This document shows positions 14,759 through 21,478 of a stretch of DNA of 64,000 nucleotides, one piece after another. This DNA comes from Candidatus Coprenecus avistercoris (GTDB taxonomy: Bacteria > Bacteroidota > Bacteroidia > Bacteroidales > UBA932). The translations under genes were made by a program, and so were the position numbers. A model generated the notes under the pieces. The model saw only the letters and a program-made list of their open reading frames with translations, was not told the DNA's origin and made no database searches. The stretch spans positions 1-64,000 of the forward strand of contig DVHI01000074.1 in NCBI GenBank assembly GCA_018712275.1. The letters run 5' to 3'. Within the stretch, counting starts at the first letter, position 1; every line of letters starts with the position of its first letter.

Positions 14759-15493
14759 CCGGCGCTCCGGATGCAGCACGGCCTCGATCTTCCTGGACGG
14801 GTCGGCTGCAATGAATTCCTTAAGATAGAAGGGTTCGAAGTACGCTGTGTCTTCGAACCTTTTTTCTTGCAGGGCCCGGAAGGCAGCGGCGGCCATGTCT
14901 TCGGCTTCGGGGCGGGAGGGTAGGAATATGCACCTGTCCCGGTACTGCTCAGGGATCATGCTTTCGTATTTGGCGGCTCCGTCTCCGGTGAATACGGCCC
15001 GGCGGTATTCTGCCAGCGTGCCGGAGAAGGTGTCGGGAGCAAGCACCACGGCTTCTGTGTCCGAGATGCGCTGTGCCGATGAATCATAGAGGGCCGTGTA
15101 GACCTCCATGCGGCGGGCGTCTATCATCGGTATTATCACCGTTCCCTCCGGATCTTCCTGTACGGCTCCGGTCCTGATGGCCCCGTACGCGATGGCGGTC
15201 AGGGTCTCTATGCCGATCAGCGGTATTCCGGCGCCGAAGCAGATGCCCTTGGCGGTGGAAACGCCTACCCGCAGTCCTGTGTAGGAGCCGGGACCGGAAC
15301 TGACGGCGACGGCTGCAAGGTCCTGTATCCGCATTCCTGCGCGGCTGACTGTGTCCTGTATCAGCGGAGCCAGCTGTGAGGCCTGGCTCCTGGCCTCCGT
15401 GATGTGTCCTGACGAGAGGATTTCATTTCCTTCCGAGACGGCAACGGAGCATACGTCGGTGGCCGTCTCTATAAGCAGTATTCTATTGTTCAT
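14753..15493 (-). CDS. tsaB: tRNA threonylcarbamoyladenosine biosynthesis protein TsaB
   Basis: 'RILLIETATDVCSVAVSEG', 'VAVSSGPGSYTGLRVGVSTAKGICFG'. Confidence 0.94.
   Translation of the reverse strand: MNNRILLIETATDVCSVAVSEGNEILSSGHITEARSQASQLAPLIQDTVSRAGMRIQDLAAVAVSSGPGSYTGLRVGVSTAKGICFGAGIPLIGIETLTAIAYGAIRTGAVQEDPEGTVIIPMIDARRMEVYTALYDSSAQRISDTEAVVLAPDTFSGTLAEYRRAVFTGDGAAKYESMIPEQYRDRCIFLPSRPEAEDMAAAAFRALQEKRFEDTAYFEPFYLKEFIAADPSRKIEAVLHPERRL
14831..14865 (+). terminator. Intrinsic terminator for the upstream + strand gene, lying within convergent tsaB
   Basis: Perfect GGTTCGAAG(14832-14840)/CTTCGAACC(14851-14859) followed by T6. Confidence 0.75.
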
Positions 15494-16715
15494 TGTCTTT
15501 GGTGTAGTCATTGTCTGTCTGAGGGCGGACTTCCATGCCGTCCTCGAGTATTCTGCTGATGGTGCTGTAGGGCCCGGTGACTATCTCGACCGTGTCCGCG
15601 GCTCCCAGCCCCGATATTACCTCGATATTCCCAATGTCCTGTATGCCTGTGGTGACCGCAACTTTGCGGACTGTCAATGACTGACGGTCCAGAACGAACA
15701 CGCAGCCGTCAGGTGTCACGGCCTGCAGGGGTATCTTCGTCACTCCGTCCTTGCGCTCGGTCTCGATCTCTACCGATGCCGACATGCCGGGGCGGAACGG
15801 AATCGGGTCGGAGGTCAGCAGGTCGGCGTAGGACTCCCGGAGGATGCGTACCTTGACCTCGAAATTGGTCACGTCGGTCAGGGCGGCAGTCGTACTGCCC
15901 AGATTCTTGGCCGAGTTGGCTATCTGGGTCACCACTCCCTTGAACGTCCTGCCGGGGTAGGCGTCAACCTCTATATCCGCGGTGTCTCCCTTGGTTATGC
16001 GGATGATGTCGTTCTCGTTGACATCCACCAGTACTTCCATCATGTCGAAGTCCGCTATACGGAGCATCTCCGTTCCCGCCATCTGGGAAGTTCCGACCAC
16101 TCTCTCGCCCTTCTCCACGCTGAGGCTGGAGACGATGCCGTCAATAGGGGAGTAGATGACGGTCTTGGTGAGGTTCTCCTCGGCCTCGTCGAGGGAGGCT
16201 ACGGCGCTCTCGATGTTGTACTCGGCGGCGTTGAGCTGTTCGCGGGCCATCTCATACTCTGCGGTGGAGGCCTGAAACTCCTGGAGGGATATGGCTTTCT
16301 GCCCGTATAGCTGCTTGTTGCGCATGTAGTTCTGCTCGGCCTGGGTGAAGCTGGCTTTCTGCTGCTGGTACTGGGCCCGGGTCGCGTTCAGGGTGGCGGC
16401 GGCCCTGTCCCGCAGGGAGATGTACACGTCCTGCTTGATCTTGATGACCAGGTCTCCCCGGCTGACGCGGTCTCCCTCCTCTACATTCAGCTCTATAATC
16501 TCTCCCGAGACGTCAGGAGATATCTTGACCTCCGTAACGGGGTGGATCTTGCCGTTGGCCGGAATCCTCTCTACTATCGTGCCTGTGGAGGGTACGGCAA
16601 CAGTGACGGGCTCCCCGTTCTCCTGACCGAGGACGGCGTATATTATGGCAGCCGCCAGAATTACAGCCACGGCTGCAAGGATATTTCTAAGTGCTTTATT
16701 CTTTTTCTTTTTCAT
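15483..16715 (-). CDS. HlyD/MacA-type efflux periplasmic adaptor subunit
   Basis: N-terminal TM; 'ISPDVSGEIIELNVEEGDRVSRGDLVIKI' lipoyl-like motif; coiled coil; beta-barrel domain. Confidence 0.92.
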   Translation of the reverse strand: MKKKKNKALRNILAAVAVILAAAIIYAVLGQENGEPVTVAVPSTGTIVERIPANGKIHPVTEVKISPDVSGEIIELNVEEGDRVSRGDLVIKIKQDVYISLRDRAAATLNATRAQYQQQKASFTQAEQNYMRNKQLYGQKAISLQEFQASTAEYEMAREQLNAAEYNIESAVASLDEAEENLTKTVIYSPIDGIVSSLSVEKGERVVGTSQMAGTEMLRIADFDMMEVLVDVNENDIIRITKGDTADIEVDAYPGRTFKGVVTQIANSAKNLGSTTAALTDVTNFEVKVRILRESYADLLTSDPIPFRPGMSASVEIETERKDGVTKIPLQAVTPDGCVFVLDRQSLTVRKVAVTTGIQDIGNIEVISGLGAADTVEIVTGPYSTISRILEDGMEVRPQTDNDYTKDNEQ

Positions 16716-16725
16716 AATATGTCCT

Positions 16726-18075
16726 TTATAGCGTCAGGGGCAGCCCCTTGTAATAATCTATAATCTTGAGCTGGAAGACGTACTGGTACTTGGCCTGAAT
16801 ATATTCCGAGCGGGCCTTGAAGAGGTTGGTCCGGGCCACGGTATAGTCTGTACCGTTGAGGGCTCCGGCATTGAACTTCTCCTCCACATACCTGAAGGAC
16901 TCTTCCATGGATGATACGTTGGCCATGGCCGCCTCCATCTGCCGGAGATATGTCCCGGCCTCAGTGACGGCTGTCTGGATCTCCTTGTACAGTTCCTGCT
17001 GCCTGATGCGCAGGTCCAGTTCGAGACTCTGTCTGGACAGCCTGGCGTTCTTGACGTTGGTGCGGACTGTCCAGTTGTTGAAAATGGGAATACTCAGGCC
17101 GATGCTTATAGCCGGGTTGATGTTGTCCCGGAACTGCTCGAAGAAGGGATAGGTGCTGCCGTCCGGAGCGTAGGAGGAGGAACTGTAGAATGTTCCGTAA
17201 CTGGCCGACAGGGATATCTTGGGCCAATACTGTCCCTGGGCGGTCCTGAGGTCCAGGTCTCCCTTCTCCAGTGCCAGTCTGGCGCTCTGGATTACGGGCA
17301 TGGACTGGGCGGAGGCATAGATGTCGTCGGTGTTTCCGCCTGTATATGATGCGGCTGTCAGGCTGATGTCCGGAGCGGCAATACGGAAGTCCGGGCTGTA
17401 GGGCAGGTCCAGCAGCTGCTGCAGGGCCAGGGTGTTGGCAGTAACCTGGCCCTGTGCGGTTACTACCTGCACTCTCTCGGATGCCAGCTGTGACTCTATC
17501 TCCAGCAGTGCGGTGTAGGGCTGGCTTCCTGCCTCGACCAGCAGCGCGGTGCGGTCCCTCTGCTCGGATATGGACTGGAAGCTTTCTTCCGCGGCTGCCA
17601 GGATTTCCTGAGACAGAAGGATCTGAAGGTAACTCTTGGCAATGGATACGGATATCTCGCCCTTGAGTCTCTCTACTTCCTGTATGGATATCTCCAGGTT
17701 CTTTCGGGAACTCTGCAGGCTGTACAGCTTGGAGAGTCCGTCCAGGAGGTAGACGGAGGCGTTGGCGGAGGCACTTGTGCTCTGGGACAGTTTGTTGCGG
17801 ATGATTTCCAGGTTCTGCAGGTCGACGGACCGGCCCCAGTTGAGGCTGTGTCCGAAGGATGCGCTAAGACTGGGCAGAAAGTCCAGCTTGTCCTGCAGCA
17901 GCTGATTCCCGCTGCGGGAGACTTCCAGGTTCTGCTTCTGTACCGTAAGGTTGTTGGCCCAGGCATACTCTATGCATCTCTCGAGAGTCCAGACATCCTG
18001 GGCTGTGAGGGTAACTGAGAAGAGCATGGTCAGGGCTATGACCGCAGCCGTATGTTTTATGGCGGAAACCTGCAT
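16726..18075 (-). CDS. TolC family outer membrane protein
   Basis: Signal peptide; 'WTLERCIEYAWANNLTVQKQNLEVSRS' and repeated helical hairpins typical of TolC; start chosen at MQVSAIKHT. Confidence 0.92.
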   Translation of the reverse strand: MQVSAIKHTAAVIALTMLFSVTLTAQDVWTLERCIEYAWANNLTVQKQNLEVSRSGNQLLQDKLDFLPSLSASFGHSLNWGRSVDLQNLEIIRNKLSQSTSASANASVYLLDGLSKLYSLQSSRKNLEISIQEVERLKGEISVSIAKSYLQILLSQEILAAAEESFQSISEQRDRTALLVEAGSQPYTALLEIESQLASERVQVVTAQGQVTANTLALQQLLDLPYSPDFRIAAPDISLTAASYTGGNTDDIYASAQSMPVIQSARLALEKGDLDLRTAQGQYWPKISLSASYGTFYSSSSYAPDGSTYPFFEQFRDNINPAISIGLSIPIFNNWTVRTNVKNARLSRQSLELDLRIRQQELYKEIQTAVTEAGTYLRQMEAAMANVSSMEESFRYVEEKFNAGALNGTDYTVARTNLFKARSEYIQAKYQYVFQLKIIDYYKGLPLTL

Positions 18076-18091
18076 ATTAAAATCCAATCTA

Positions 18092-18099
18092 CAAAAATA
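18092..18099 (-). promoter_or_regulatory. Candidate -7 box (TATTTTTG) for tolC-hlyD-tsaB unit
   Basis: Minus-strand TAnnTTTG just upstream of tolC ATG; no convincing -33 element. Confidence 0.4.
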
Positions 18100-18116
18100 A
18101 CAAAAAATACTCATAG

Positions 18117-18152
18117 ATAAAGTCCGCCGGAGAACAATCCGCTCCGGCGGAC
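18117..18152 (-). terminator. Intrinsic terminator after the peptide genes
   Basis: Perfect 11-bp inverted repeat GTCCGCCGGAG(18122-18132)/CTCCGGCGGAC(18142-18152), followed on minus strand by TTTAT. Confidence 0.7.
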
Positions 18153-18173
18153 CGGTATCAGGTCACGGCGGCG

Positions 18174-18350
18174 CTACCATGCGCCCTCTGCCTGCGGTTT
18201 GCGGTATTCTCCTGTGAGCAGGTCGTAGAGTGCCCTGAGGGCTGCTCCGACCAGTCGTCCCAACATTCTGACTACTCTTCCTTCCTGTGAGGTTGCTCCT
18301 CCTATGACTGAGCATGCCTGGACTCTTTCAATAGTGATGAACCGTTCCAT
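18174..18350 (-). CDS. Putative double-glycine-leader peptide B (58 aa)
   Basis: Own translation: MERFITIERVQACSVIGG|ATSQEGRVVRMLGRLVGAALRALYDLLTGEYRKPQAEGAW*; absent from ORF track (<60 aa); GG with V-4, I-12, F-15; 11-nt gap from peptide A. Confidence 0.7.
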   Translation of the reverse strand: MERFITIERVQACSVIGGATSQEGRVVRMLGRLVGAALRALYDLLTGEYRKPQAEGAW

Positions 18351-18361
18351 AGTCTGAGATA

Positions 18362-18550
18362 TTAGGAGTTAGACATTGAACTTACGATATCCTGCCCTGT
18401 CCATCCTTCAATGATGCCGAGGAAGAACTGGTCCAGGTGTTTCTTGATGACTCTTATGACTCCGGCCCAGATGCCGCCGCCATAGACTGTGGTGCTCAGG
18501 TCGGAATTAATACATTCAAACCCTGCGTAGCTGTTGATAATTCTTTCCAT
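18362..18550 (-). CDS. Putative double-glycine-leader peptide A (62 aa)
   Basis: MERIINSYAGFECINSDLSTTVYGG|GIWAGVIRVIKKHLDQFFLGIIEGWTGQDIVSSMSNS; directly downstream of a C39-peptidase ABC exporter; V-4, I-12, F-15 relative to GG. Confidence 0.72.
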   Translation of the reverse strand: MERIINSYAGFECINSDLSTTVYGGGIWAGVIRVIKKHLDQFFLGIIEGWTGQDIVSSMSNS

Positions 18551-18597: not shown

Positions 18598-20694
18598 TTA
18601 CGCCTGTGAATGCGCATTCTTTTTATTGATATCGATAATGTTGTCTGCCAGTGAGGCCGCCTCCTGCTCGTGGGAGATGAGTATGACTGTGATACCTTTC
18701 TCCTTGAGTGTCAGGATGGTCTCCGTGAGTCTTGTACGGCTGTCGCTGTCCAGGTGTGTGGCAGCCTCGTCCAGTATGAGTACTTTCGGCCTGCGGTACA
18801 GGGCTCTGGCCAGCGCTACCTTCTGCCTCTCTCCGCCGGAGAGCCGGCCGGCGTGTTCTCCTGTGTGGGCCAGCAGGCCTCCGGGCAGGGACTCCAGAGT
18901 GGGAGCCAGGCCCGCGATGGCACAGGCCGCCGTCACTTCCCGGATGTCGTAGCCGCTGTCGCCCATGACTATGTTGTCGAGTATGGTGCCGTCGAAGATG
19001 TCCGGTTTCTGGGGCACGATGCTGATGTGCCTCCTCCATCTGTCCGGAGGTATGTTCCGGATGTCGGTCCCGCCGACGGTGATCCGTCCCTCCTGGGGCG
19101 TGTATCCCCGCATCAGAAGGGCCGCGAGGGTGCTCTTGCCGCTGCCGTTGGCTCCGCGGATGAGATGTACCTTTCCCGGCTCAATGTCGAAGGACAGACC
19201 GTCCAGCAGTTTCATCCGTCCCGGGAAGGAGAAGCCCAGCCCGCGCACTTCTATCCTGTCGTCCGCGGAAGGGGTGAAGTCCAGGGTCTCTCCGCCGGTT
19301 TCGTCATCCATGTCCAGGATGTCGAATATCCTTTCTGCCGATATCCTGGCCTCGGTAATCTCCCTGCTGCTCTCGATGAGCATGACAATGGGGGAGGTGA
19401 GCAGGGCTGCGAAGGAGAAGAACGAGACCAGCTCGCCCACCGTGAGCTCGGAGCGCAGGACGAAGAAGGCGCCTGCCGTAAGGGTGACCGTGTGGACCAG
19501 CCGGCTGACCGTATCGGATGAGGAGGCCATCGCTGAGGTGAACATGCCTCCGCGGTACATGGCGTCCGCAGTCCGGAAATATTTCCGGCCGATCTGCCGG
19601 ACGGCCTCCCGGGAGGCGCCGAAGTATTTGACGGCCCGGACGGAGGACAGCCATTCGATATTGGTCTGCTCGAATGAGGCGTTGGCCTCGATGATCCTGC
19701 GGTTGAGCCTTCGGTTCACCCTGTCGGATATGCGGTACAGCAGGATGAATACGGGAATGAAGCTCATGGTGATGAGGGTAAGCTTCCAGTAGAATGTCAT
19801 GAGTATGGCGGTGGCCAGCAGTAGGGTGAGGACGCTGACGGCCATGATCAGCAGCCGTCCGGTGATGAAGGAGCGTATCCTGTAGGCGTCCGATACCCTG
19901 GAGTTCAGTTCTCCGCTGCTCATGGAGTCGAAGAATGATACCGGCAGGGAGAACAGTTTCCCGAAATAGCTCATGATCAGCCGGCAGTCTATCTGAAGGC
20001 TGGTCCTTACCAGCAGGACCGAGCGCATGTAGGATACCAGCCAGGTGAGGCCGGCCAGGCAGAGCATGGCGGCTCCTATGGCTGCGAGAGCGCCCCTGTC
20101 TCCGGACGGTATGATGTCGTCGATGATCCTCTGCAGGAAGAGGGAGGTGCTGAGGGTGGCGGCGATGAAGGCGGCCGAGCCTGCCAGAACCATCGCCAGC
20201 TCCTTCTTATAATAGAGCAGAATCTCCCTGAACCGGGCCAGGACCGGGGTCCTTCTGTCGCCTTTCTGAAAGGACGGGGAGGGGGCGAGGGCTACTATGA
20301 ATCCGCTCCACTCCTCTTCCAGGTCGGCCGGGCTCATCCTGTGAATCTCTCCGTCCTCGGGGTCCATGACCGTCGCCGTGCTGTCGTCAATGGCATAGAG
20401 GACCACATAGTGCAGCCATCCGTTCTTTTTCCTGAGGTGCAGGATCACCGGCTTGACGGCTTCCTGCAGGTCCGTTATGTGCTTTTCCTTGGCACGCAGC
20501 CCCGCTGCGTCCATTCCCAGCCTGCCGCAGGCGTCTATGATGCCCTGCAGGCTGGTGCCGTCCGGACCTGTGCCGCATGCTTCCCTGATGCGGAGCAGCG
20601 GCAGCCTCAGCCCGTAGTGTGCGCATACCGAGGCGACGCATGCGGCGGCGCAGTCGGTATTGTCATGTTGTCTGACTTTGATCTCCTTCTTCAT
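18598..20694 (-). CDS. Peptidase-containing (C39) ABC transporter, bacteriocin/peptide exporter
   Basis: C39 motif QHDNTDCAAACVASV (Q, C), WLHYVVLY (H), VMDPEDG (D); TM domain; Walker A GANGSGKST, signature LSGGERQKVALARAL, Walker B VLILDEA. Confidence 0.95.
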   Translation of the reverse strand: MKKEIKVRQHDNTDCAAACVASVCAHYGLRLPLLRIREACGTGPDGTSLQGIIDACGRLGMDAAGLRAKEKHITDLQEAVKPVILHLRKKNGWLHYVVLYAIDDSTATVMDPEDGEIHRMSPADLEEEWSGFIVALAPSPSFQKGDRRTPVLARFREILLYYKKELAMVLAGSAAFIAATLSTSLFLQRIIDDIIPSGDRGALAAIGAAMLCLAGLTWLVSYMRSVLLVRTSLQIDCRLIMSYFGKLFSLPVSFFDSMSSGELNSRVSDAYRIRSFITGRLLIMAVSVLTLLLATAILMTFYWKLTLITMSFIPVFILLYRISDRVNRRLNRRIIEANASFEQTNIEWLSSVRAVKYFGASREAVRQIGRKYFRTADAMYRGGMFTSAMASSSDTVSRLVHTVTLTAGAFFVLRSELTVGELVSFFSFAALLTSPIVMLIESSREITEARISAERIFDILDMDDETGGETLDFTPSADDRIEVRGLGFSFPGRMKLLDGLSFDIEPGKVHLIRGANGSGKSTLAALLMRGYTPQEGRITVGGTDIRNIPPDRWRRHISIVPQKPDIFDGTILDNIVMGDSGYDIREVTAACAIAGLAPTLESLPGGLLAHTGEHAGRLSGGERQKVALARALYRRPKVLILDEAATHLDSDSRTRLTETILTLKEKGITVILISHEQEAASLADNIIDINKKNAHSQA

Positions 20695-20731: not shown

Positions 20732-20878
20732 TTAGAATACTGGAAGCAGAGGCAGCGCCGACAGCAGCAGAACGGCTGTGACGGCTGCGATGTACCACAG
20801 AACTCTTCCCCCGGCCATAGGCGGCAGCATGGTGTCCGCGGAGAGGCCGGCTTTCTCCTTAAAGCTCATTTCTTCCAT
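20732..20878 (-). CDS. 48-aa single-TM small protein upstream of the exporter (immunity, accessory or third substrate peptide)
   Basis: Own translation: MEEMSFKEKAGLSADTMLPPMAGGRVLWYIAAVTAVLLLSALPLLPVF*; same strand, 37 nt before exporter start; not in ORF track. Confidence 0.6.
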   Translation of the reverse strand: MEEMSFKEKAGLSADTMLPPMAGGRVLWYIAAVTAVLLLSALPLLPVF

Positions 20879-20980: not shown

Positions 20981-21478
20981 TTAGGAGTTGAAAAGTTGCT
21001 TTAAATAAGGGAATAGCGCGTCAGTGATGGAGGAGATGATCTGCACGCCCTTGGACTTGGCCATCTGCTCGGGGGAGATAAGGGTGAACCAGGTCGTGTT
21101 CACATACTCTATGACGGAGATGATGACTCCTATGAGCAGGACGACGGCGGAGACTGAGAGCAGGACGCCGAGGAGGCGGTTGATCCAGCCGAGGGTTGTG
21201 ATCTTGATGACCTTCTCGAGGAGGCGGCTCAGCAGGACTACGCAGAGGCAGACCACGACTATGATGACGATGAACGAAAGCACCTTCACTACGTTCTCGG
21301 AGAGGGTGGGCGCCACGCGGTGGAGCCAGCCCGAGAGTATGGCCGAGAACCTGCCTGCCAGGAATATACCGAGAATGAGGCCCACGATGCCGCCGAGCTG
21401 CCGCATCAGGCCGTCCTTGATACCCTTGAACACCGCCAGGGCCAGGAGTACGAGAATGATGATATCTATAACTGTCAT
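20981..21478 (-). CDS. CvpA family protein
   Basis: 'IDIIILVLLALAVFKGIKDGLMRQLGGIVGLILGIFLAGRF' CvpA pattern. Confidence 0.9.
   Translation of the reverse strand: MTVIDIIILVLLALAVFKGIKDGLMRQLGGIVGLILGIFLAGRFSAILSGWLHRVAPTLSENVVKVLSFIVIIVVVCLCVVLLSRLLEKVIKITTLGWINRLLGVLLSVSAVVLLIGVIISVIEYVNTTWFTLISPEQMAKSKGVQIISSITDALFPYLKQLFNS

Follow-up and report, generated by a model that had tools for sequence, protein, structure and literature searches.

Two paired double-glycine peptides beside a C39 exporter in gut Bacteroidales: a putative two-peptide system resembling class IIb bacteriocins

The window, the whole stretch of 64,000 nucleotides analysed here, comes from a relative of Candidatus Coprenecus, a genus placed by NCBI in Rikenellaceae incertae sedis. 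It contains a minus-strand operon with the gene order CvpA, TM48, C39 ABC exporter, peptide A, peptide B, TolC and HlyD, flanked by a divergent IleRS gene on the CvpA side and by TsaB after HlyD. The upstream landmark of the locus is a CvpA family protein (20981..21478; Colicin_V PF02674, E=2.7e-26), and this is followed by TM48, a protein of 48 aa with one hydrophobic stretch (20732..20878). The 698 aa exporter (18598..20694) contains a C39 peptidase domain (Peptidase_C39, E=1.7e-27) together with ABC_membrane and ABC_tran domains. It is 66–76% identical to the exporters of named Coprenecus records; the closest record overall, at 99%, is from an uncultured Bacteroidales bin. Beyond the two peptide genes, the operon encodes a TolC-like outer-membrane channel (16726..18114; OEP, E=5.5e-43), the true start of which is probably near 18075, and a HlyD-like periplasmic adaptor (15483..16715; HlyD_D23, E=1.5e-22, with RND_mfp/HlyD models).

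The precursor of peptide A comprises 62 aa (18362..18550) and that of peptide B 58 aa (18174..18350); both open reading frames are on the minus strand, separated by 11 nt, and are real, as an earlier note on this DNA had proposed. In A, a predicted double-glycine leader of 25 aa (18476–18550) precedes a core of 37 aa (18365–18475), and in B a leader of 18 aa (18297–18350) precedes a core of 40 aa (18177–18296), each core being followed by a stop codon. The double glycine ends the leader in nearly all family members and its second glycine is invariant. Columns invariant among 24 diverse A sequences are Met1, the cleavage-site Gly25, Gly45 and Gly49, and those among 24 B sequences are Met1, Gly17, Gly18 and Gly35. 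In loci L028–L031, GG-A-G replaces GGG, in agreement with the double-glycine register used in the earlier note. That note had also held that the departure of the leaders from the consensus at −7/−8 weakens the case. The deviation exists, but it carries little weight since the A leaders of other genera, which read [LI]NSSEL...GG, lie near the known C39 consensus.

Each core carries a conserved small-xxx-small motif. In A this is the C-terminal G45-I-I-E-G49 (18404..18418, minus strand), with the pattern G[FYIL]xxG across the family; GxxxG is present in 119/121 A sequences and GxxxA in the other two. Mature A contains GxxxG at all 60 curated loci, versus a shuffle mean of 17.6 and maximum of 28. 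In B the motif is G31-R-L-V-G35 (18246..18260, minus strand); [GAS]xxxG is found in 121/121 members, and the strict form in 48/60, against a mean of 14.7 and a maximum of 24 in shuffles. Of the two motifs named previously, GRLVG of B is thus the conserved one, whereas GIWAG of A was rejected as a partner motif, being confined to the window and its 99%-identical relative.

The two precursors had been read as paralogues, with a common MER[I/F]I start, and with V at −4, I at −12 and F at −15 from the double glycine. Both sets of likenesses exist, but they cannot share one ungapped register, since leaders of 25 and 18 aa make the MER start and the double-glycine register incompatible without an indel. 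The gapless alignment claimed for the cores does not hold up: it has 4/25 identities, sets +4 of core A against +6 of core B at its start, and its score is reached by 3% of shuffles. In profile comparisons, the leaders match with an hhalign probability of 95% and the mature peptides with one of 0.3%, so that paralogy survives for the leaders and is rejected for the cores. The shared exporter alone would explain the leader likeness, and from these comparisons the word partners suits A and B better than paralogues. Core A has a mean charge close to neutral (+0.5), and core B is mostly cationic; there are no conserved core cysteines in either.

Related loci were fetched after a search for the exporter in 60 relatives and 300 genomes of the host family. 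Both peptides are present, in the order A then B, at 122/122 orthologous loci, which represent about a dozen genera of the family, and their genes are close or overlapping. None of these loci holds one peptide alone or with an unrelated core, which bears out the expectation that the orthologues always occur together. The pair was counted at all 60 loci of the first set and at 61/62 of the second; the remaining one, L142 (genome G107), has A within a longer open frame, and this had been filtered out. Every exporter in the CvpA–TsaB site is followed by two double-glycine peptides, barring L043, the sole CvpA-linked locus without a demonstrated pair, where the contig stops about 475 nt past the exporter. 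At C39 loci elsewhere there is no A–B pair. Loci L043, L080, L081, L085 and L090 gave A-like matches in the iterated profile and were excluded, as the full locus or B is missing. The sample holds one genome per species, with many draft bins, and the counts are non-independent owing to sequence relatedness.

Profile searches gave a similar picture. With each genus left out in turn, every A and B, including those of the window, is the best match of its locus. When lists from 200 family genomes were compared, A was found in 115, B in 114 and both in 111; stray matches to one peptide are weak or off-site, except in G165, which has B on inspection. In a sample of 394 genomes of the order, convincing B matches were confined to the host family, and there were no convincing matches in about 390 Bacteroidales genomes of other families. 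Spread outside the family was rejected, the order-wide B search having given only weak matches, mostly to open frames over 320 aa; judging from PDB matches, these are probably polyprenyl synthetases. In a large part of the family the locus is fixed, single-copy and vertically placed beside IleRS, CvpA and TsaB. That A and B invariably occur together beside the same exporter suggests one two-part agent.

Within the genus of the window, dN/dS is mostly 0.1–0.4 for both A and B, indicating purifying selection. One locus differs in a particular way: between L031 and L028–L030, identity of about 93–100% falls to about 46–83% over a segment that runs from mid-A across B as far as the beginning of TolC, and then recovers. 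Here the A core, B and the spacer have been replaced as one tract between near-identical loci, which is a single event and not a general arms race. Conservation of the peptides is about equal to that of the exporter in the other close pairs, and general diversifying selection on the peptides was rejected in close pairs with this one cassette exchange excepted. The joint exchange of the A core and B supports co-specificity. Distances among A and among B are also correlated beyond those of the exporter (partial r 0.65, reached in 0/300 permutations), a value that is not phylogeny-corrected.

AlphaFold predicts for B one helix, residues 22–46, which holds the motif (mean pLDDT 81–91 for residues 21–50). 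The single chain of A is predicted as two helices, with low to moderate confidence, below that of B. Helices of both peptides are predicted to be amphipathic, with a mean moment of about 0.45, and the angle between the glycine face and the hydrophobic face is fairly fixed across the family, at about −72 degrees in A and +106 in B. No Pfam or NCBIfam family, and no RiPP, bacteriocin or defence model, matched A or B above cut-off, and Bacteriocin_IIc (PF10439) was not detected in the genome of the window. Two A members weakly match the lactococcin G-beta model, below cut-off (15.1 bits versus 37 in a member scanned singly), and two weakly match PSMalpha (E=0.0037).

The best solved relative of the exporter is PCAT1 (4ry2; E=1.6e-108), with which the intact catalytic triad C, H and D aligns. 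By this likeness the exporter would cleave both leaders after the double glycine and export the cores. CvpA adjoins the exporter in nearly all loci and is possibly a production factor. The accessory export proteins, the HlyD-like adaptor and TolC, lie within the operon except in part of genus g15, where loci L039, L062, L063, L067 and L069–L071 keep the exporter, A and B and lack TolC and HlyD; TM48 was not found at these loci either.

TM48 represents an unannotated family of 46–60 aa proteins with one hydrophobic stretch, presumably transmembrane, and an [ML]LP-like motif, encoded between CvpA and the exporter at 38/60 loci. In the comparison of the 60 loci, homologues were not found in several genera, such as g15 and g11. 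TM48 may be an immunity or assembly protein, and could confer immunity in those genera that have it. Class IIb immunity proteins can be as short as 42–55 aa, and CbnZ has one transmembrane domain (PMC6957408). TM48 is, however, almost the same in L031 and L028–L030 despite the swapped peptides, which speaks against immunity specific to the exchanged alleles.

Just after B, a GC-rich hairpin is followed by a T-rich stretch (18121..18153, minus strand; MFE −28.9 for a 95-nt segment folded on that strand). A pattern scan, the loop limit of which was 8, missed it. Most relatives that were folded also have a hairpin in the gap between B and TolC, with a sequence that differs between loci. This suggests a putative terminator or attenuator, at which the A–B mRNA would end or be attenuated, giving A and B as a separate abundant transcript.

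Among known systems, the closest in anatomy are the class IIb bacteriocins, such as lactococcin G and carnobacteriocin XY, which likewise have two adjacent double-glycine precursors, a C39 ABC exporter and an accessory protein, a GxxxG or GxxxG-like motif in each core and, possibly in common with A–B, a very small membrane immunity protein (PMC6957408). Alanine in place of a glycine counts as GxxxG-like in this class (PMC6957408). In contrast to these, A and B are found in Gram-negative Bacteroidales, with a HlyD–TolC conduit and a core-genome locus, and they have no database homology above cut-off. The best-supported description is of a pair that would work like a class IIb bacteriocin without being filed as one: it has most of the anatomical features, but no curated model matches above cut-off. 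The functional analogy drawn in the earlier note, of paired peptides with a GxxxG each, thus gains strong support from the pairing and the motifs.

Among Gram-negative bacteria, Cdz of Caulobacter crescentus (CdzC/CdzD, CdzAB and CdzI) comes closest; it is also a two-protein type I secretion system with GxxxG motifs and a small membrane protein. Cdz proteins, however, aggregate and have extended GxxxGxxxG zippers, while A and B have one short motif each, and CdzI has three predicted transmembrane domains where TM48 has one hydrophobic stretch (PMC5380434). In the Bacteroidetes, the nearest precedent is the bacteroidetocins, class IIa-like toxins from the same taxonomic order that share with A–B the double-glycine leader and the C39 ABC exporter; a bacteroidetocin, however, is one peptide with four cysteines, accompanied by a thiol oxidoreductase and a five-transmembrane protein and encoded in a region that species share (PMC6671954), and A–B lacks those partners. 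Export of class II microcins and colicin V (CvaAB–TolC) similarly combines a double-glycine peptide, a C39 ABC transporter, a HlyD-type adaptor and TolC, with a CvpA family protein nearby, but microcins act singly, unlike the invariable pair with its GxxxG motifs. A search of the open-access literature found no two-peptide system of the A–B type for Bacteroidales.

Taken as a whole, these features give about an even chance that A and B are secreted together as one obligate two-peptide agent which works like a class IIb bacteriocin, associating through the motifs, acting on membranes and probably inhibiting relatives. The processed cores would leave through the HlyD–TolC conduit encoded next door, and outside the cell they would form amphipathic helices that associate through the conserved small-xxx-small motifs. 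The associated peptides might then work as one unit, inserting in a membrane or acting at it. The most likely purpose would be the inhibition of related bacteria, as suggested by the class IIb analogy, the cassette exchange and the anatomy of the locus. Bacteriocins are typically cationic and have a patchy, mobile distribution. The antibacterial reading is therefore weakened by the fixed core-genome locus and the near-neutral core A, as it is by purifying selection, under which the peptides of close species usually match the exporter in conservation, and by TM48, which several genera lack and which stayed nearly unaltered in the L031 swap.

The core-genome placement and the missing immunity candidate in some genera leave room for a signalling or a surface role. 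A and B could form a two-part secreted signal, either a pheromone or a developmental cue, and the stability of a single-copy locus placed vertically in many genera would follow from such a function; purifying selection on the peptides and the want of a clear immunity gene fit it too, and C39 exporters also serve quorum signals (PMC6363468). Nevertheless, the window ORFs around A and B include no recognisable histidine kinase, response regulator or other receptor, two obligate partners with a motif each would be unusual for a pheromone, and at about 40 aa the cores are long for a signal, and we regard this explanation as unlikely. To much the same degree we doubt that the peptides are abundant amphipathic surface or surfactant-like products, resembling phenol-soluble modulins or Cdz aggregates, that serve colonisation, spreading or contact-dependent effects with no diffusible killing. 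The extended glycine zipper of CdzC/D is lacking, and a surfactant would not need to consist of two different obligate partners, each with a conserved GxxxG-like motif; this has to be set against the amphipathic helices, the weak PSMalpha matches, the strong hairpin, which suggests that the A–B mRNA is expressed apart from TolC, and the precedent of Cdz, where such pairs can remain on the cell surface (PMC5380434).

It is considerably less probable that one peptide is the sole effector and the other its chaperone or secretion helper. The cores are not homologous and differ in charge, as this would allow, but each precursor combines a cleavable leader, suited to one common exporter, with a small-xxx-small motif that is highly conserved, and an export helper need not itself be exported. 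As to the chance that the open reading frames are spurious or decayed, which is vanishingly small, they are short and without family matches, but their conservation in about a dozen genera, a dN/dS well below 1 and their recovery with the genus left out already refute it.

On a further-reaching reading, to which we give slightly less than an even chance, A and B would be two new peptide families that have co-diverged as partners across about a dozen genera, within a vertically inherited core-genome system of one family of gut Bacteroidales in which partner matching sets the targets; this would be the first known class IIb-like system in Bacteroidota or else a new two-peptide signal. Species-specific partner matching, and not gene gain or loss, would then determine who affects whom. 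Known small peptide toxins of gut Bacteroidales, for example bacteroidetocins, are single peptides encoded in patchy regions, whereas A and B are paired at one fixed chromosomal site, and the locus lets one ask why a bacteriocin-like system becomes part of the core genome. This largely uncultured family supplies a ready series of more than 120 natural sequence pairs for tests of partner specificity, and A–B is a possible narrow antibacterial against gut Bacteroidales.

Other C39-type exporters were observed in the course of the comparison. A second one in the genome of the window (L138, contig C59) is 29% identical to the exporter described here and has no A–B pair beside it. In genus g18, runs of other double-glycine peptides lie near or apart from another C39 exporter (L080 and L135), and one of these peptides contains GFVDG, which recalls the motif of A.
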